Position numbers and translations under genes: made by a program. A stretch of 64,000 nt of DNA, from positions 1 through 64,000 of the forward strand of contig JAGHSZ010000020.1 in NCBI GenBank assembly GCA_018065565.1, in the 5' to 3' direction. Within the stretch, counting starts at the first letter, position 1; every line of letters starts with the position of its first letter. Below are positions 2,602-60,360 of the stretch, one piece after another. The DNA comes from Candidatus Colivivens caballi (lineage in GTDB: Bacteria; Bacteroidota; Bacteroidia; Bacteroidales; Bacteroidaceae). Below the pieces are notes generated by a model that ran no database searches, was not told the DNA's origin, and saw only the letters and a list, made by a program, of their open reading frames with translations.

Positions 2602-2982
2602 GTGATTTATTTTCAATTTCTTTCATGTTTTGCCTATAAATCTTGATGCAATGGCGCTTTTTTATTGTTTTTATGTTAATTGTTGCTCGAATACTGTTAT
2701 TTCACACCGATTCAGTACTATTCTTCCATTCAGTTTGCTGATTCAATTGGACAGTCACCACCCCTGCAACAAGCAGGGATAGCATTGGGTTGTCCATCCC
2801 TCCCTTTTATGGCGACAGACCTTCCCCATCCCTCTCTTTTAGTGTGGGGGTGGATGAGTTGTTCACGCAGGTTACGCCGATTTACAGAATTCGTTTTTTC
2901 CTTTCAATCAGCGCAATCTGCGTGAGTTTTATAGACCTTCCACGCTGTCTTTTGCTACTTGTCTTGAAAGGAAAAATTGCAT
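2602..2982. other. Non-coding spacer upstream of the palindrome array
   Basis: No gene was recognised. A small hairpin (CCCTGC at 2762-2767 with GCAGGG at 2773-2778) is visible. The rest is C/T-rich and low in coding character. ORFs that cross it run through the repeat array and look like chance. Confidence 0.4.
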
Positions 2983-3195
2983 AACGAGCGCTCATAAATT
3001 GTCTCACGAGCACTCGTAAATTGTCACACGAGCGCACGAAGATTGAAAAAGGTGTACACCTTCTTGTGAAAAGGTGTACAGCAAACGCCAGAAAGGTGTA
3101 CACCAAAATTCAGAAAGGTGTACACCTTTTTATAGTTTATGAGCGGTCGTGGGAACAAACATGAGCGCTCGCGAAGGAAAACATGAGCGGTCGTG
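2983..3195. repeat. 22-bp phased palindrome array, copy 1
   Basis: Ten short dyad-symmetric motifs lie with centres 22 bp apart. Three GAGCGCTC-like units are centred near 2989.5, 3011.5 and 3033.5. Four GGTGTACACC-like units follow at 3055.5, 3077.5, 3099.5 and 3121.5. Three more GAGCGCTC-like units lie at 3144.5, 3166.5 and 3188.5. The only irregular step is one of 23 bp. The second GGTGTACACC unit reads GGTGTACAGC, and the spacers between core units (for example AAACGCCAGAAA) recur in the copies at 17.7 and 46.4 kb. The array lies between the XRE gene and vsr. It is not CRISPR-like. Function is unknown; helical phasing suggests binding sites for a dimeric protein. Confidence 0.88.
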
Positions 3196-3277
3196 GAGGC
3201 AAACATCGTCAGGTGTCACCATAACGATAATGAACGATTGGGGATAATCATGGCTTATCAAAGTGTGTTTTACCCTA

Positions 3278-16987: not shown

Positions 16988-17587
16988 TTATTCACCTACA
17001 ACTACTTTTGAATAGCGAATAACTTTTCCGTTTAAGGTGTAGCCCTTGTTGATGCAGTCGATGACCTTGCCCTTCATTTCAGGAACAGGGGCAGGAATCA
17101 TAGTGATTGCCTCGTGGTAGTTTACATCGAAGTCCTTCTCCTTGGTGTCGATTTGTTCAACTCCCTGCGACTTCATGAACTTCATGAACTTGTCGATGAT
17201 GAGTGTCACGCCTTCTTTGACGGCATTGACATCGGTCATTTTGTCCATACTCTGTTCGGCACGCTCCAAGTCGTCAATGATTGGCAGAATGTCAGTCAGC
17301 ACTTTCTCGCCACCATTAAGGATGAGGTCGGCTTTCTCTTTGAGTACACGCTTGCGGTAGTTGTCGAATTCAGCAATCTGACGCAGATTCTTGTCTTTCA
17401 GTTCTGCTATTTCCTGCTGTGCTTGTGCCAGCTGTGCCTCGATTGTATCTTCTTCGGTTTCAGTGCTTACCTTTTCAGACTGTTCTTCCTGTTCAGTTTG
17501 TGAACTTGCTTCCTGTTCAGCATTCTGCTGCTCTACATCTTCGATCTCGATATCTCTTGCTTCTGTTTCTTTGTTCTTTTCTTCCAT
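16988..17587 (-). CDS. grpE: Nucleotide exchange factor GrpE
   Basis: This 199-residue protein has a very acidic, Glu/Gln-rich N-terminal third, a long coiled coil (about 50-105, with [16 protein letters not shown]) and the GrpE head motif [13 protein letters not shown], then [24 protein letters not shown] and [17 protein letters not shown]. GrpE promotes ADP release from DnaK. It is first in the grpE-dnaJ operon. No clear TAnnTTTG motif or heat-shock operator was found upstream. Confidence 0.97.
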
Positions 17588-17734
17588 GTTTTGATGTTTT
17601 GCCTTTTTTGTTAATTATTATTTATAATATAAAATGTGTGCAAACTATGTGCCAATGCCCCTAACTCTCGCTTTTCGGACATAATGGCACTGGAGGCAAT
17701 AGCCGTGTCGCAGATTGATGGCAAATACCTGCAC
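17588..17734. other. Spacer upstream of grpE
   Basis: No gene was seen. The stretch adjoins the second phased palindrome array and contains the presumed grpE promoter region, but no consensus motif could be assigned. Confidence 0.35.
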
Positions 17735-18052
17735 GAGCACTCATGTTTTACCACGCGAGCGCTCGTAAATAGTAAATCGTGCGGTGGATGATTGGAAAAG
17801 GTGTACACCTTCCTGAGAAAAGGTGTACAGCAAACGGCAGAAAGGTGTACACGAAAATTCAGTAAGGTGTACACCTTTTATATATTGTCGTGCGCTCGTG
17901 AAACAAAACATGAGCGCTCGTGAAGGCATTTTCCTATGCACGATTGACAATTAACCTCTGCATGATTGACGCTTAACCTCTGTACAATTCATAGCTAACC
18001 TATGCATGATTGACGGCTAACCTATGCATGATAGATAATTAACCTCTGCATG
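17735..18052. repeat. 22-bp phased palindrome array, copy 2 (longest)
   Basis: Fifteen motifs lie with centres 22 bp apart. Three GAGCGCTC-like units sit at 17738.5, 17760.5 and 17782.5 (the last decayed to GTGCGGTG). Four GGTGTACACC-like units follow at 17804.5, 17826.5, 17848.5 and 17870.5. Two GAGCGCTC-like units lie at 17893.5 and 17915.5. Six TGCA-centred units, in contexts such as CTATGCATGATTGAC, run from 17938.5 to 18048.5; one of these reads TGTA. Only two steps are 23 bp. The four core units and their spacers match copy 1 closely. The array separates grpE from the AbiE-type pair. Function is unknown. Confidence 0.9.
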
Positions 18053-18229
18053 CTGAAGGAGGAATCAGAGTGGGGTTATCCATACGATGATGCAAAGGAG
18101 TAATACATTCTCGACATGGAACAACGCGAACATACCGAACTGGTGATTGGCTGCCTATGTGATTTGTTTACCCTATCTGAAACAGAAACAGCCCAGTGCT
18201 CCAAAAGAAAAAATACATCTACAATCTGA
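18050..18229 (+). pseudogene. Short degenerate ORF with an in-frame stop
   Basis: From ATG 18050 a frame runs 17 codons to TAA (18101-18103) and then continues in the same frame for 42 codons to TGA at 18227. The part after the stop (from ATG 18115) is acidic to neutral and matches no family I know. It lies at the end of the palindrome array and ahead of the AbiE-type genes. It may be a relic of a small gene or chance; evidence is weak. Confidence 0.25.
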
Positions 18230-18320: not shown

Positions 18321-18626
18321 ATGAGTAAAAAAGAATGCATAGAAGCAATGTCGCCTTACCTGTTTTGGGATGTTGACCGCACAACACTTGACCTTGATAC
18401 TCACAGGTCGTATATCGTGCAGCGTGTCTTGGAGTATGGTTTGATGCAGGATTGGGTATGTCTGAAACAAACCCTGGGCATCCCTGCCATCACTGCTACA
18501 TGCAAGGGACTGCGTTCACTTGAACCTCGTGCTCTGGCATTTATATCGCTCGTTTCTAAAACACCAAGGGAGGAATTCAGATGCTACACTACGAAACAAT
18601 CGAGCCGGGAACCTTGGAACTCTTGA
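18321..18626 (+). CDS. Putative AbiE-system antitoxin component (DUF6922-like)
   Basis: This 101-residue protein has a YLFWDVDRTTLDLDTHRSYIVQRVLEYG segment and reads like a short regulatory domain that, in Bacteroidota, commonly precedes AbiEii-type nucleotidyltransferases. The family name is from memory of that neighbourhood. The reading frame overlaps the toxin gene by 46 bp, so synthesis is coupled. In AbiE systems the first protein represses the promoter and offsets the toxin. The C-terminus within the overlap is poorly constrained. Confidence 0.7.
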   Translation: MSKKECIEAMSPYLFWDVDRTTLDLDTHRSYIVQRVLEYGLMQDWVCLKQTLGIPAITATCKGLRSLEPRALAFISLVSKTPREEFRCYTTKQSSREPWNS

Positions 18627-19201
18627 AAAAGATTCAGTCATTGACTGAATTTCAGTTCTTGCGCCTTGTCGGTGGCACTGCCCTTGCCTTGCAACTTGGT
18701 CACAGAAAGTCTATTGATTTGGACTTTTTCGGCACTATAAATTGTGATGCAGATGAATTGGTGGAACTGATGCGAGGCATTGGCAACATCCAGTTGCTAA
18801 AGAAATCAAAAAACATCAATGTATTTATAGTCAACGGTATAAAGGTCGATTTTGTAAATTACGACTACGAATGGATTGCTCCGCCAATAATTGAAAACGG
18901 CATAGTATTGGCTCAGGAGCCTGACATTGCAGCCATGAAAGTCAATGCCATTATTGGTCGCGGAACAAGAAAAGACTTCATTGACATTGCTTTCCTTTTA
19001 AAGAAGTATTCTCTGTCTCAGATTTTTCATTTCTATTTCAGTAAATATCCCGAAGCGTCAATGTTCTTGGCATCTAAGAGTCTTGCTTATTTTGATGATG
19101 CTGATAACGACCCAATGCCGCTCATGCTAAATGAAGAGACTTGGGATGAAATCAAACAATACATCTCGAGCAAATACGAGGATTACGAAGACAGCTACTA
19201 A
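18581..19201 (+). CDS. AbiEii/AbiGii-type nucleotidyltransferase toxin
   Basis: This 206-residue protein has the type IV toxin nucleotidyltransferase signature: FLRLVGGTALALQLGHRKSIDLDFF (GG[ST] loop followed by DxD-type DLD, about 25-48), VDFVNYDYEW, and MKVNAIIGRGTRKDFIDIAFLLKKYSL with the conserved K and R-KD. Such toxins nucleotidylate tRNA or related targets and mediate abortive phage infection with an AbiEi-like partner. The start at 18581 is preceded by GGGAGG at good spacing, unusual for this phylum. Residues and length fit an active enzyme. Confidence 0.87.
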   Translation: MLHYETIEPGTLELLKKIQSLTEFQFLRLVGGTALALQLGHRKSIDLDFFGTINCDADELVELMRGIGNIQLLKKSKNINVFIVNGIKVDFVNYDYEWIAPPIIENGIVLAQEPDIAAMKVNAIIGRGTRKDFIDIAFLLKKYSLSQIFHFYFSKYPEASMFLASKSLAYFDDADNDPMPLMLNEETWDEIKQYISSKYEDYEDSY

Positions 19202-29882: not shown

Positions 29883-30941
29883 TTATTTCAGATGGTTCCA
29901 CCCCTGTGCCTTGATGTCGAACTGTGCTCCGTCGCGTGTGATGAGCAGTTTGCCGTCGTCGGCATCGGTGATGTAGCCAATCATCTTCACATCGTCCATC
30001 GTTTCCACCTTCTCCTTGTCTGCCAAAGGGACGGTGAAGAGCAGCTCGTAGTCCTCACCTCCGTTGAGGGCGCAGGTGATGACATTCAGGTTGAATTCTT
30101 CGGCCTGTGCCGCCGTCTGGTAGTCGAGCGGAATGTGCTCTTCATAGACTCGGCATCCGCAGTGGCTGTCCTCGCAGATGTGAAGGAGTTCGCTGCTGAG
30201 TCCGTCGCTTATGTCCATCATGGCAGTTGGCTGAATGCCTAACTGGCGCAGCTGGCGAACGATGTCGCCACGGGCTTCGGGTTTCAGCTGGCGTTCAAGC
30301 AGGTACTCGCGACCCGAGAAGTCGGGCTGGAAGTCGATGGGCTGACCCTTTGCCTCTGCCTGCTGACTGTAAAAGACTTCTTTCTCGCGCTCAAACAACT
30401 GCAATCCAAGGTATGCGGCTCCAAGGTTGCCGCTGACGCAGATGAGGTCGGTGGGCTTTGCCCCGCTTCGGTAGATGGCCTTGCCCCGCTCCACATCGCC
30501 GATGCAGGTGATGCTGATCATCAGTCCAGTGAGTGAGGATGTGGTGTCGCCGCCCACGATGTCCACATTGTGGGCATCACATGCCAGCCGCAGTCCGTCG
30601 TAGAACTCCTCCATGTCGGCAAGTGTGAAACGCTTGCTCAGTCCCAGACTGACCGTAATCTGCCTGGGTGTCCCTCCCATGGCATAGACATCGCTGATGT
30701 TCACCATTGCTGACTTGTAGCCAAGGTGCCGGAGGGGAACATAGGTGAGGTCGAAGTGTATGCCTTCGAGGAGCAGGTCGGTGGTGACAAGGACTTCCTT
30801 GTCGGCATCAAACTTCAACACGGCGCAGTCGTCGCCCACACCCTTGATGGTTGATGGATTGTGAATGGGGAGTTGGTCGGTGAGATGGTGAATCAATCCG
30901 AATTCGCCGAGGTCTTTTATGTCTTTTTCTTGTTCTGCCAT
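29883..30941 (-). CDS. thiL: Thiamine-phosphate kinase
   Basis: From ATG 30941 the protein has 352 residues. It has the ThiL/PurM-like pattern: GDDCAVLKFDADKEVLVTTDLLLEGIHFDL (metal/ATP Asp), AMGGTPRQITVSLGL, NVDIVGGDTTSS, GNLGAAYLGLQLF and MDISDGLSSELLHIC. It phosphorylates thiamine monophosphate to the diphosphate. A start ten codons earlier (30971) lies in the repeat-rich spacer and is less likely. The 5' side carries heptamer tracts. It is convergent with the PqqD cluster. Confidence 0.94.
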   Translation of the reverse strand: MAEQEKDIKDLGEFGLIHHLTDQLPIHNPSTIKGVGDDCAVLKFDADKEVLVTTDLLLEGIHFDLTYVPLRHLGYKSAMVNISDVYAMGGTPRQITVSLGLSKRFTLADMEEFYDGLRLACDAHNVDIVGGDTTSSLTGLMISITCIGDVERGKAIYRSGAKPTDLICVSGNLGAAYLGLQLFEREKEVFYSQQAEAKGQPIDFQPDFSGREYLLERQLKPEARGDIVRQLRQLGIQPTAMMDISDGLSSELLHICEDSHCGCRVYEEHIPLDYQTAAQAEEFNLNVITCALNGGEDYELLFTVPLADKEKVETMDDVKMIGYITDADDGKLLITRDGAQFDIKAQGWNHLK

Positions 30942-30959
30942 TGGGTTCTCTTTACATTT

Positions 30960-31075
30960 GCCGTTAGCCATTAGCCATTGGCTTCTCTTTACATTTGCTG
31001 TTTGCTGTTAGCCATTGGCCATTGGCCATTGGCACTGTTCACTATTCACTTTTCACTATTCACTTACTCCTCCCC
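30960..31075. repeat. Heptamer tracts upstream of thiL
   Basis: Two kinds of 7-bp units, TTAGCCA/TTGGCCA and TTCACTA/TTCACTT, fill most of the spacer between PNP and thiL. They resemble the tracts at 31930-32200 and 38096-38350. Confidence 0.75.
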
Positions 31076-31095
31076 TCGGGGGAGTCAGAAGGGGG

Positions 31096-31908
31096 CTACT
31101 TCACTTTCTTGATGAGCTCCTTCATCAGTGCGGTCATTCGAGGCTGGGCGGCATCGGCTGCAATCTGGACTTCTTCGTGGCTGACCTTGACTGCCTCGTC
31201 GAATCCTCCGAGGTCGGTGATGACGCTGATGCCAAATACCTTGATGCCGCAGTGAACGGCTACAATGACTTCTGGCACTGTTGACATGCCAACAGCATCG
31301 GCACCGAGTGCGCGGAATGCGCGGTACTCAGATGGTGTCTCAAATGTAGGGCCTGGGGTGCCATAGTAAACGCCTTTGTGAACCTTGATGCCGAGTTCCC
31401 TGGCTGCGTCTTCTACGATGGCAATGAAGTGTTTGTCGTAGGCTTCATGCATTGAGGGGAAGCGTGGACCCGTTGGGAAGTTCTTGCCGCGCAGTGGGTT
31501 CTCTGGGAACATGTTGATGTGGTCTTCGATAATCATGAGGTCGCCAACCGAGAATGCAGGATTCATGCCTCCTGCTGCATTGCTGACAAAGAGGTTCTTG
31601 ATGCCCAGTTCGTACATTACACGGACAGGGAATGTCACTTCTTTCATGTCGTAACCTTCATAGTAGTGGAAGCGTCCCTGCATGGCAAGAATCTCTTTGC
31701 CTCCGAGCTTGCCGAAGAGCAGCTTGCCGCTATGTCCCTCTACTGTTGATATTGGCATGTTTGGAATCTCGCTGTAAGGGATTTCGGTTTCAATATCAAT
31801 TTCTTCGACTAATCGTCCTAATCCGCTGCCGAGGATGATGGCAGTTTCGGGTTTGCTGGTCATTCGCTGGCGAAGGAACTCAGCTGTTTCTTGAATTTTC
31901 TCGTACAT
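31096..31908 (-). CDS. Purine nucleoside phosphorylase
   Basis: From ATG 31908 the protein has 270 residues. It has the trimeric PNP signature: ILGSGLGRLVEEI, GRFHYYEGYDMKEVTFPVRVM, VSNAAGGMNPAFSVGDLMIIEDHINMF, PGPTFETPSEYRAFRALGADAVGMSTVPEVI. It phosphorolyses (deoxy)inosine and guanosine. An earlier start (31953) would add 15 residues encoded by AT-rich spacer and is rejected. It lies in a minus-strand run with thiL and lpxK separated by repeat-filled spacers. Confidence 0.94.
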   Translation of the reverse strand: MYEKIQETAEFLRQRMTSKPETAIILGSGLGRLVEEIDIETEIPYSEIPNMPISTVEGHSGKLLFGKLGGKEILAMQGRFHYYEGYDMKEVTFPVRVMYELGIKNLFVSNAAGGMNPAFSVGDLMIIEDHINMFPENPLRGKNFPTGPRFPSMHEAYDKHFIAIVEDAARELGIKVHKGVYYGTPGPTFETPSEYRAFRALGADAVGMSTVPEVIVAVHCGIKVFGISVITDLGGFDEAVKVSHEEVQIAADAAQPRMTALMKELIKKVK

Positions 31909-31929
31909 AGATATAAGTTTAAAATTATA

Positions 31930-32200
31930 TGTTAAATTTAGGCTGTTAGCCATTAGCTGTTAGCCATTGGCCATTAGCTGTTAGCCATTATTTAGGCCGT
32001 TAGCTGTTAGCCATTGGCCATTAGCTGTTAGCCATTAGCCATTATCCATTAGCTTAGAGCTTAGAGTTTAGGACGCTCTCATCTCTCCACTTTTTCACTC
32101 TTCACTTTTCTTTTTTCACTTGCGAAGCACTACTTTTCACTTTTCTTTTTTCACTTGCGAAGCACTACTTTTCACTTTTCACTCTTCACTTCCTTTGTGA
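31930..32200. repeat. Heptamer tracts and a duplicated TTTTCAC-GCGAAGCAC unit
   Basis: Imperfect 7-bp units of the TTAGCCA/TTAGCTG type run from about 31940 to 32060. They are followed by TTCACTT-type heptamers and two copies of a unit with TTTTCACTTGCGAAGCAC about 40 bp apart (near 32115 and 32150). The tract reaches into the last codons of lpxK, whose C-terminus (VKSEK) is encoded by it. Confidence 0.72.
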
Positions 32201-33209
32201 TTGAACTGATGATTCGGTCTTCAAATTCAGCTTGTTCGCCGTTCATGATTTCCACTTCGATGGGGAGTGAACAGAGCGACTCGGTGTGGAGCAGGGGGGC
32301 AAGACGAGTATAGTCTTTTTCCGTAGTCACAATCAGACGCTGGCTTCCTTCCAGTGCTTCATAGGCTTGTCTGATGCCTGTGATGTCGGCTTGGGTGAAG
32401 TTGTGGTGGTCGCCAAAGCGCATGGAGTTGAAGTCGGTGTATTTCCCCAGTTCCTCTTCCAGTGGGCGTGGATTGGCGATGCCTGTGATCAGCAGCACAG
32501 AATAGTCTTTCAGTTGGTCAAGGCTTATGCCGTTGGACAGTTTGCCGTATTTGATTCGTGAGAAATACAGTTGCTGCTGTGGTTCCAGTTTCAAGTTGGT
32601 GTGCAGTTTGCCCTTTTGAAATTCGTTTACTGCTGTTTCGGTGCATTTTGTGACGATGACGATGTCTGCCCGTCTGTGTCCCTTTCTGCTTTCGCGCAGC
32701 CGTCCCATTGGCATCAGCCAGTCGGTCGAGTAGAGCCTGTGACGGTCTGTGAGCAGTATGCTGACTGTCGGTTGTACCCTGCGGTGCTGGAAAGCGTCGT
32801 CAAGCAGAATGACATCGGGGCGCTTGTCGAGGTCCTGCAGCCTCTGGATGCCTTCGCATCTGTCGGCATCGACGGCTACGGTAAGTCCCTGGAATTTGTG
32901 AAACATCTGATAGGGTTCGTCGCCTATGTCTGCGACGGTGGAACTGTCGTCTGCCAGGACAAATCCCTTGGTCTTCCGTTTGTATCCACGGCTGAGAACA
33001 GCCACATGCATGCCTTTTGCCTGAAACAGGCGTATGAGGTATTCAGTGTGTGGTGTCTTGCCAGTGCCTCCTACTGCCAAGTTGCCTATGCAGATGGTCG
33101 GTATGTCGAAGGTGTACGACTGAAGAATTGAACAGTCGTACATCCAGTTGCGTATGGATGTGACACCATCGTAGAGGACTGCAAAGGGATAGAGCAGAAA
33201 GTCGAGCAT
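32172..33209 (-). CDS. lpxK: Tetraacyldisaccharide 4'-kinase (LpxK)
   Basis: From ATG 33209 the protein has 345 residues. It has an N-terminal membrane-associated helix (MLDFLLYPFAVLYDGV), P-loop GNLAVGGTGKTPHTEYL, DVILLDDAFQHRRVQP and LLITGIANPRPLEEEL. LpxK adds the 4' phosphate of lipid A at the inner membrane. A TTG start ten codons earlier (33239) is possible but nearly abuts the sppA stop. The last few codons lie inside a repetitive tract, so the C-terminal end may be a recent extension. Confidence 0.93.
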   Translation of the reverse strand: MLDFLLYPFAVLYDGVTSIRNWMYDCSILQSYTFDIPTICIGNLAVGGTGKTPHTEYLIRLFQAKGMHVAVLSRGYKRKTKGFVLADDSSTVADIGDEPYQMFHKFQGLTVAVDADRCEGIQRLQDLDKRPDVILLDDAFQHRRVQPTVSILLTDRHRLYSTDWLMPMGRLRESRKGHRRADIVIVTKCTETAVNEFQKGKLHTNLKLEPQQQLYFSRIKYGKLSNGISLDQLKDYSVLLITGIANPRPLEEELGKYTDFNSMRFGDHHNFTQADITGIRQAYEALEGSQRLIVTTEKDYTRLAPLLHTESLCSLPIEVEIMNGEQAEFEDRIISSITKEVKSEK

Positions 33210-36608: not shown

Positions 36609-38090
36609 ATGAAATTGCTTACAGACAAAGAACTGATAGAGGCTATTGACAAGCCTATTTTTCATAAGATATCGGAAGTTGCCGATGCTCTGCACCTTGA
36701 TTGCTATGTGATAGGTGGATATGTCCGCGACCTGTTTCTTGAACGCCCAAGCAATGACATTGATGTCGTTGTGGTCAGTGGCGCTGATGCCGATGAACCG
36801 GCAGGGGATGATGAAAAAGCGACAGAGCACACTGCCTCGCGCCCTGGCATAGTCATTGCCGAACATCTGAAACAGGTGCTGGGCAAGAAGGCAAGCATTG
36901 CCGTGTTCCGCAACTTCGGCACTGCGCAGGTGAAATGTGGAGGCATGGAAATCGAATTTGTAGGTGCACGGCGTGAGTCTTACAGTCACGACTCGCGCAA
37001 ACCCATCATTGAGGACGGCACACTCGAAGACGACCAGAACCGCCGCGACTTCACCATCAATGCAATGGCGCTCTGCCTCAATGGTGACCGTTTTGGACAA
37101 CTTGTTGACCCATTCTATGGATTGTACGACCTTGAGGATGGAATCATACGCACACCGCTCGACCCCGATGTCACTTTCAGCGACGACCCTCTCCGCATGA
37201 TGAGGTGCATACGGTTTGCCACCCAGCTCAATTTCACCTATGAGGATGAGACCTTTGATGCCATCAGCCGCAACCGTCAGCGCATACGAATCATCTCAGG
37301 TGAACGCATTGCCGAGGAACTCAATAAAATCATCATGGCAAAGCACCCGTCGAAGGGATTCATCGACCTGGAACGCTGTGGACTGCTCGAAATCATCTTC
37401 CCGGAACTGTATGCTCTTGAAGGGGTGGAGACTCGTAACGGACGGGCACACAAGGACAACTTCTACCACACCCTTGAGGTGCTCGAAAATGTAGCCCGTG
37501 ACGGTGCCGACCTGTGGCTCCGCTGGGCTGCCATACTCCATGATGTGGGCAAACCAAAGAGTAAACGATGGGACAACCAGTTGGGATGGACTTTCCACAA
37601 TCACAACTACATAGGTGAGAAGATGGTGCCGTCGATATTCAAGCGCATGAAACTTCCTCTCGACCAGAAAATGAAATATGTGGAGAAACTTGTTGGGCTT
37701 CACATGCGTCCTATCGTGATTGCCGATGACGTGGTCACTGATTCTGCTGTACGCCGTCTGCTCTTTGAGGCTGGCGACGACATCGACGACCTTATGCGTC
37801 TGTGCGATGCTGACATCACCTCAAAGAATGAACAACGCAAGCGGCAGTTCCATCAGAACTTCCAACTGGTGCGTCAGAAACTGATTGACATCGAGGAGAA
37901 AGACCGCATCCGTAACATGAAACTTGCTGTCGATGGCGAGGAAATCATGGCCATGTTCAACCTTCAGCCTTGTGCCACCGTCGGTTCTCTGAAAATGCAG
38001 ATGAAGGATGCCATCCTCGATGGTGTCATCCGAAACGAACACGATGAATGTGTGGAGTTCCTGAAAAAGATTTATGAAAGTGATAAGTGA
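36609..38090 (+). CDS. cca: CCA-adding / polynucleotide nucleotidyltransferase with HD domain
   Basis: This 493-residue protein has a nucleotidyltransferase domain with YVIGGYVRDLFLERPSNDIDVVVV (GG...D-x-D), RRDFTINAMALCL and DDPLRMMRCIRFATQL. An HD phosphohydrolase domain follows (LRWAAILHDVGKPKSKR, then VTDSAVRRLLFEAGDDIDDLMRLCDADIT). The layout is that of bacterial tRNA CCA-adding enzymes with HD domain, which build or repair the 3' CCA end. It is divergent from the GH105-type gene, with its own promoter. Confidence 0.93.
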   Translation: MKLLTDKELIEAIDKPIFHKISEVADALHLDCYVIGGYVRDLFLERPSNDIDVVVVSGADADEPAGDDEKATEHTASRPGIVIAEHLKQVLGKKASIAVFRNFGTAQVKCGGMEIEFVGARRESYSHDSRKPIIEDGTLEDDQNRRDFTINAMALCLNGDRFGQLVDPFYGLYDLEDGIIRTPLDPDVTFSDDPLRMMRCIRFATQLNFTYEDETFDAISRNRQRIRIISGERIAEELNKIIMAKHPSKGFIDLERCGLLEIIFPELYALEGVETRNGRAHKDNFYHTLEVLENVARDGADLWLRWAAILHDVGKPKSKRWDNQLGWTFHNHNYIGEKMVPSIFKRMKLPLDQKMKYVEKLVGLHMRPIVIADDVVTDSAVRRLLFEAGDDIDDLMRLCDADITSKNEQRKRQFHQNFQLVRQKLIDIEEKDRIRNMKLAVDGEEIMAMFNLQPCATVGSLKMQMKDAILDGVIRNEHDECVEFLKKIYESDK

Positions 38091-38095
38091 AAATT

Positions 38096-38355
38096 TATGC
38101 TGTTAGCTGTTGGCCATTAGCCAATGGCTTTTTTTCACATGCGCAGCACCCATGCTAATGGCTAATGGCAAATGGCCAATGGCTTCTTTTCACATGCGCA
38201 GCACCCATGCTAATGGCAAATGGCTAATGGCTAATGGCTTCTTTTCACATGCGCAGCACCCATGTTAATGGCTAATGGCCAATGGCAAATGGCTTCTTTT
38301 CACATGCGCAGCACCCATGCTAATGGCCAATGGCTAATGGCAAATGGCTCAAAAT
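38096..38355. repeat. 55-bp tandem repeat with nested heptamers
   Basis: Four copies of a unit containing CACATGCGCAGCACCCATG lie exactly 55 bp apart (38136, 38191, 38246, 38301). Between them are 7-bp units GCTAATG/GCAAATG/GCCAATG in varying order. The tract fills the spacer between cca and the convergent TonB-like gene. Confidence 0.85.
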
Positions 38356-46100: not shown

Positions 46101-46292
46101 CGCAAAATTATTCAATTGAATGCAAGTAGCACTCTAAATTACCTTACTTTTATGAAACTTTATAAGAAATATTATTCATAACTGACAATTTCTTCTTCTT
46201 TCCTGCATAATTTTAGTGTGTTGTTTATTCTTTTTTCGCATTCTTTCCGTGTTAATTTCATTTATCCCTTGTTTGCAATCTGAGATCCTCGC
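46101..46292. other. Gene-free spacer upstream of the AAA gene
   Basis: AT-rich; no ORF with coding character, no hairpin of note. It leads into the third phased palindrome array. Confidence 0.4.
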
Positions 46293-46520
46293 AAGCACTC
46301 ATGTTTTGTCTCGCGAGCACTCATGTTTTGTTTCACGAGCGTTGATGTTTTGTCTCACGAGCGTTGGATAATATAAAAAGGTGTACACCTTCTTGAATTT
46401 TGGTGTACACCTTTCTGGCGTTTGCTGTACACCTTTTTCTCGGAAGGTGTACACCTTTTTATATTGTTGAGCGCTCGATTTACTATTTATCTATGCACGA
46501 TGAGCAAAACATCAACGCTT
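46293..46520. repeat. 22-bp phased palindrome array, copy 3 (core inverted)
   Basis: Eleven motifs have centres about 22 bp apart. Four GAGCACTC/GAGCGTTG-type units sit at 46296.5, 46318.5, 46340.5 and 46362.5. Four GGTGTACACC-type units follow at 46384.5, 46406.5, 46428.5 and 46450.5. One GAGCGCTC lies at 46472.5, one TGCA unit at 46495.5, and one decayed unit near 46516.5. The third core unit reads GCTGTACACC and the spacers are reverse complements of those in copies 1 and 2, so the core is inverted here. It lies between the AAA gene and the DjlA-like gene. Confidence 0.88.
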
Positions 46521-46845
46521 GTGAGATAAAACATGAATATAACACATTCGGAAGATGAATAGATTTAGCCGTCGGGGATGTTTCAACCTAAATCGACCAT
46601 TAGGCGGTGATGCGCTGACAAGCCTTCTTTTTGTCATCTGGGCATATTTCCAGCAGAAACATTTGGTAGAGTCATCATTATTTGCGAACTTTGCCCCCAG
46701 TACTGATGTAGCAATGGCATGATAGTGCTTTGGCAACAGTCTTGTGCCGCATCAGCGGAGTGATTTTTAAGAAGAAACATTATTACATTAGGGATGGAGT
46801 GGGGGATTGCTCACATACACACCTGAATAAACACAGATAGATGTT
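46521..46845. other. Spacer upstream of the DjlA-like gene
   Basis: No gene recognised; a 74-codon minus-strand ORF here has no homologous look or promoter. No TAnnTTTG motif was found near 46846. Confidence 0.4.
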
Positions 46846-60112: not shown

Positions 60113-60195
60113 GACTGATTCCGAACCTTATAACAATTCTTATCTCTATGCCTAAACTATATTTCCTTAATCTCGATGATATAGAAATATAGTTC

Positions 60196-60290
60196 CGAAG
60201 CAGTGGGGGTGTCCGAAGCAGTGGGTTTTAGGGTTTTAAGCAGTGGGTTTTCGTGGCCGAAGCAGTGGACTTTTGTGGTCGAAGGAGCAC
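60196..60290. repeat. 22-bp phased AAGCAGTGG array
   Basis: Copies of AAGCAGTGG start at 60198, 60216, 60238 and 60260, with a decayed copy at 60282. The last four are 22 bp apart and the first step is 18. It sits between the lipoprotein and C10 peptidase genes. The sequence is unrelated to the GGTGTACACC arrays but shares their period. Confidence 0.72.
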
Positions 60291-60360
60291 TTCTTCGGGG
60301 CTGAACATACGCTGCTTTGGCCATGAAGATATAGATGTCTTAGTATTTATGATTCATGCT

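Follow-up and report, generated by a model that had tools for sequence, protein, structure and literature searches.

Dispersed arrays of TGTACA sites at two-turn phase between inverted arms in a Bacteroidaceae genome: a candidate platform for a DNA-binding protein

The array lies in an intergenic region of the window (the whole stretch of 64,000 nucleotides that was analysed), with a GrpE-like gene on the minus strand on one side and a DUF6922/AbiEii pair on the plus strand on the other. The GrpE-like neighbour has homologues in 14 of the 17 genomes of the genus. Tandem-repeat and BLAST searches of the window located a second and a third copy of the element.

About 2976–3206, plus strand: second copy of the element
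16988–17587, minus strand: left neighbour, a GrpE-like open reading frame (named by sequence reading), the start of which faces the array
17728–17793, plus strand: left arm, three B units (centres 17738.5, 17760.5 and 17782.5)
17794–17815, plus strand: A unit U1, GGTGTACACC, invariant in 78/78 copies
17816–17837, plus strand: A unit U2, GGTGTACAGC, the same variant in 58/78 copies
17838–17859, plus strand: A unit U3, GGTGTACACG in the window array; CACC in 58/78 and CACG in 14/78 copies
17860–17881, plus strand: A unit U4, GGTGTACACC, invariant in 78/78 copies
17883–17926, plus strand: right arm, two GAGCGCTC-type B units (centres 17893.5 and 17915.5), inverted with respect to the left arm
17928–18059, plus strand: tail, six TGCA-centred units (centres 17938.5–18048.5), variants in the B frame
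18321–18626, plus strand: right neighbour, DUF6922 (Pfam PF21956, E 1.5e-15)
18581–19201, plus strand: AbiEii-type nucleotidyltransferase (Pfam PF08843, E 1.2e-12)
About 46283–46530, minus strand: third copy of the element

The chain of dyads has 15 centres between 17738.5 and 18048.5, with all steps of 22 bp except 17870.5 to 17893.5 and 17915.5 to 17938.5, which are 23 bp, in agreement with the original prediction. With 50 of 75 pairs it is the top-scoring chain of its kind in the window: two start positions in the whole 64 kb score at least as high, the array itself included, and the 99.9th percentile is 41. The exact GGTGTACACC is found in the window array only in the units centred at 17804.5 and 17870.5, while those at 17826.5 (GGTGTACAGC) and 17848.5 (GGTGTACACG) are one-letter variants. 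Three motif classes had been proposed, but there are really two: aligned in the same 22-bp frame, the TGCA-centred units, which are weak dyads (2–3 of 5 pairs), match the innermost-left GAGCGCTC-class consensus at 12–18 of 22 letters and are thus variants of that class. The six-unit tail is an extra of this array, the usual form being 3 B + 4 A + 3 B. Elsewhere in the window, positions 60173–60325 hold another intergenic array with a 22-bp period and an unrelated motif (AAGCAGTGGGTTTT), and intergenic 55-, 54/35- and 37-bp repeats of TTAGCCA/TTTCACT-like heptamers are found at 38061–38342, 31886–32212 and 30888–31081, respectively.

A sequence-model search of the source genome (G000; a 2.55-Mb draft assembly in 168 contigs, 84.7% complete) placed the window array among about 84 copies of a non-coding intergenic element of about 220 bp. 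The 84 places comprise 77 full copies and several partial ones among matches listed down to 51 bits, a level at which strongly decayed copies could still be missed. The layout is fixed: three B units, four A units of the GGTGTACACC type and three B units inverted, so that the two arms are inverted relative to each other. Exactly three left B units are present in 48 of 81 copies and three right B units in 55 of 81. The same period holds in the other copies, with 250 of the 255 steps between neighbouring TGTACA sites exactly 22 bp (the rest are 20 bp once, 31 bp once and 44 bp three times), and every B centre sits at phase 0 or +1 with respect to the core. The exact-sequence element was absent from 16 congeners and 44 other relatives, and the same element was not found in plasmids. 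Array flanks in the source genome (for example at L269, L260 and L265) are often bordered by a second dispersed repeat, AACCCAAATCGTTCATTAGCGTTAT, and also by a CCCTCCCCATCCCTCCCTTTCAGGGCGGGG repeat.

The motifs are far better conserved than the sequence between them. Mean pairwise divergence is 34% for spacers versus 2.3% for motifs, and between mutual nearest-neighbour copies 49 of 540 spacer positions differ (9.1%) versus 5 of 600 motif positions (0.8%); the outer A sites are the same in all 78 copies. In a dead insertion, decay would affect motifs and spacers equally; as the spacers drift and the motifs do not, the motifs are held in place. A neutral minisatellite, spread by slippage and recombination, would fit the varying number of arm units, and the intergenic regions of this genome are rich in other repeats, but such an origin is contradicted by the difference in divergence, the fixed phase, the fixed 3-4-3 order and the minimum spacing between copies described below, and we give it hardly any credence. 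The earlier view that the array is unlike a simple tandem repeat is borne out. A CRISPR-like array was also rejected, as the motifs are palindromic with conserved spacer frames rather than direct repeats with unique spacers.

The B units combine one conserved outward half-site (GC-CTCG) with a second half that drifts; the left and right halves show no compensation and the units are not true dyads. The arms within one copy are no more complementary to each other than shuffled sequence. The half-site asymmetry, together with the lack of arm complementarity, argues for reading the arm units as directional protein sites, and against an RNA or cruciform role. It had been suggested that dimers sit on every unit; this may hold at best for the TGTACA units, and not for the GAGCGCTC class, which has no compensating dyad.

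With home-made gene calls from a coding-potential gene caller, no array core overlapped a predicted gene, in agreement with the expectation that the block is untranslated; a translated repeat was rejected on the same observation. By the same calls, 60 arrays have both neighbours, with 23 lying between convergent genes, 15 between divergent genes and the others between co-directional genes, in the same orientation as the genes or the opposite one in a ratio of 17:5. Array-free gaps of at least 100 bp (n = 113) are co-directional in 74 cases, divergent in 29 and convergent in 10, so that convergent gaps are enriched for arrays (23/60 versus a background of 10/113). In co-directional gaps the array is usually closer to the stop of the upstream gene, and the arrays mostly lie directly behind the 3' end of a gene. 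This location and the convergent enrichment would suit an RNA element (a hairpin or bidirectional terminator behind genes), and AAAAAGGTGTACACC...GGTGTACACCTTTTT could pair, with −35 kcal/mol for the consensus. However, covariation was seen in only 1 of 29 pairs, the same-copy arms behave like shuffled sequence, no intrinsic terminator was found, there was no Rfam match at the gathering score and the minimum spacing would be left unexplained. A hairpin or terminator was rejected for want of arm covariation and of a terminator, and an RNA role of this kind seems very improbable.

The BIME/REP elements of enterobacteria are dispersed palindromic units, found behind genes and between convergent genes, that bind proteins. 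The array copies resemble them in being dispersed, in having palindromic A units and in lying behind genes and between convergent genes. REP units are hairpins of ∼35–40 nt with no strict 22-bp phase, whereas the arrays are phased at 22 bp. Hairpin covariation was not seen in the arrays.

The copies also keep a distance from one another. Based on 22 same-contig intervals in this fragmented assembly, the spacings range from 7.5 to 29.9 kb; no two arrays are closer than 7.4 kb, none being observed below 7 kb (8.8 expected), and the minimum spacing was matched in 0 of 20000 simulations (interior-only P = 4e-4). On the closed chromosome of a relative, G680, two TGTACA families are never less than 20 kb from each other (P = 2.5e-4).

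Minimum spacing is also what a mobile element with target immunity would produce, and this is the main rival to a protein platform. The element would be non-autonomous and MITE-like; its inverted B arms would be bound by a transposase, in the manner of Tn7, IS21 or Mu-like ends, and immunity would space the copies. The ends of Tn7, IS21 and Mu have multiple ∼22-bp sites for the transposase, in opposite orientation at either end, and these elements show target immunity. The element has ∼22-bp sites and inverted arms of directional, outward half-sites; its homologous copies are dispersed, and the array neighbours differ between the congeners G000 and G008. It departs from such ends in having no constant terminal sequence, no transposase that we could see and an extra palindromic core, which is left without a role. 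Fixed terminal inverted repeats, as expected of a MITE, were not found, as the inverted arms vary in length. Flank BLAST gave neither a true empty site nor a target duplication among the sequences examined (the junction-spanning matches are copies with mis-detected ends), and neither an autonomous parent nor B-only arrays were found apart from the known copies. The conservation of the motifs in place while the spacers drift also counts against mobility, which we regard as rather unlikely, although it deserves more weight than the other rivals considered here.

The layout recurs, with other sequences, in related genera. The exact triple TGTACA-16-TGTACA-16-TGTACA is present in 19 of 399 genomes of the family, with 70–125 matches in several genus g3 genomes; the control, in which the pattern is reversed to ACATGT, is itself common in genus g11. 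Such patchy presence counts against a single conserved and essential system, unless its motif changes. Parabacteroides gordonii has eight copies of an array with a core of four TGTACA sites at 22 bp and AACTAATT-type flanks, and families X and Y of G680 likewise have a core of four TGTACA sites at 22 bp. A census of periods was made on sampled sequence: the first 800 kb of G680 hold four array families (periods 21, 22, 22 and 23) and 17 of 28 periodic segments at 21–23 bp, at least one of the 17 probably coding, and in 315 kb of G574 (L464–L483) 33 of 54 periodic segments, from many unrelated motif families, have a period of exactly 22 bp. In one G574 family, three 22-bp palindromes around TACATGTA form the core, between inverted GGCATGCC arms. 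The congener G008 has an array phased at 11 bp, in at least 11 copies, whose inner and outer classes are inverted about the centre. The G008 and G574 arrays are unrelated in sequence to the G000 element but have a similar inverted layout. No gene family is common to the array neighbourhoods across genomes, and the array neighbours of G000 and G008 do not match. The unrelated sequences and unmatched neighbours imply that sequence and position turn over while the layout stays, and hence that the element must have been able to spread.

Other arrays with 22-bp spacing were noted in passing. The congener G004 has arrays of other sequence (L168 2156–2240 and L335 370–699), one of them directly behind grpE; Olsenella/Atopobiaceae (L061, L068, L117, L134 and others) have dispersed GGTGTACATACCCTC repeats, some as inverted pairs ∼98 bp apart; and Verrucomicrobia AS27 (L065, L080 and L095) has dispersed inverted GGTGTACAAGGGATGCTCA repeats.

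At L132 (222–295), L128 (7774), L149 (2361) and L105 (5301), 22-bp GGTGTACA direct repeats, likely iterons, adjoin Rep_3 genes identified by Pfam, and at L130 (634) one identified by a home-made HMM. These TGTACA-type repeats beside initiator genes, in unrelated bacteria, show that the 22-bp geometry suits cooperative winged-helix binding. The arrays could be sites, resembling iterons, of a free or domesticated winged-helix initiator of the Rep_3 type, used for replication control or titration. In Prevotella intermedia, which bears the PINSR repeat discussed below, the second chromosome is reported to encode a Rep_3 protein, with no iteron-like repeats found nearby (PMC4755523). The arrays share the spacing and motif type of Rep_3 plasmid iterons, but the latter are direct repeats adjoining the rep gene, with one origin per plasmid, whereas no Rep_3 gene lies near the arrays in the array loci examined, the A units are palindromic, the arms are inverted and dozens of dispersed copies are unlike an origin. 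We therefore consider Rep_3 sites improbable.

It had been claimed that no Bacteroidales element of such a form has been described. This is nearly right: the nearest described elements are PINSR (PMC4755523) and BrickBuilt (PMC4596501), and in the text available to us neither paper describes A/B arrays with inverted arms or their spacing. PINSR of P. intermedia/nigrescens is a 188-bp intergenic non-coding repeat with 177–184 copies in one lineage and, according to its authors, without terminal inverted repeats (PMC4755523). The array element is likewise a high-copy intergenic non-coding repeat; the comparison is by description only, as the available text of PMC4755523 gives neither unit structure nor period, nor does it report a spacing or selection analysis. 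The BrickBuilt MITE of Porphyromonas gingivalis has 19 copies, one repeat class, a leader and tail and IS5-like TIRs (PMC4596501). It is similarly intergenic, multi-copy and species-specific, with repeats of about two turns (23 nt; PMC4596501), but the array element has a 22-bp repeat, two site classes, inverted arms and 84 copies, with no fixed TIR or leader/tail. Literature matches to GGTGTACACC were only to papers unrelated by title and abstract.

On the sequence evidence we lean towards the arrays being a dispersed, selectively kept platform for a putative oligomeric DNA-binding protein, possibly one that organises the chromosome. Four near-identical TGTACA sites lie between inverted arms, each with three directional B sites, and neighbouring sites are two helical turns apart. 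This arrangement would line up several copies of a sequence-specific protein on the same DNA face and so build a fixed nucleoprotein patch; we infer the binding, the oligomerisation and the function of the patch. Such patches would lie mostly behind gene 3' ends, separated by a minimum of several kilobases. Their most likely use would be to organise the chromosome, in a way comparable to the BIME, MatP and gyrase-site systems, or to insulate topology or transcription. The lack of a gene family common to the array neighbourhoods and the fact that the B units are not true dyads count against this platform.

More tentatively, and with less than even confidence, the arrays may belong to a Bacteroidales-wide class of two-turn-phased arrays, with inverted B arms around 3–4 A sites, in which sequences are replaced between species but the geometry and the distances between arrays persist. 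Such a class would be a rapidly evolving system that organises or marks the chromosome, together with DNA-binding proteins that co-evolve with it. Intergenic repeats scattered through a genome tend to be regarded as sequence families; here it is the geometry that is conserved in several genera (two-turn phase, inverted arms, a core of three or four sites and a minimum spacing), and not the sequence. If a transposase reads the arrays, they would constitute a large family of minimal mobile elements kept apart by immunity. If instead a protein platform is what they form, the protein that reads them would reveal how chromosomes are organised or marked in a major gut and rumen lineage, and would provide a testable explanation for PINSR and BrickBuilt. 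The approximately 84 arrays and their relatives of the same layout thus suggest that bacterial chromosomes can be marked or organised in a way that is little known so far.
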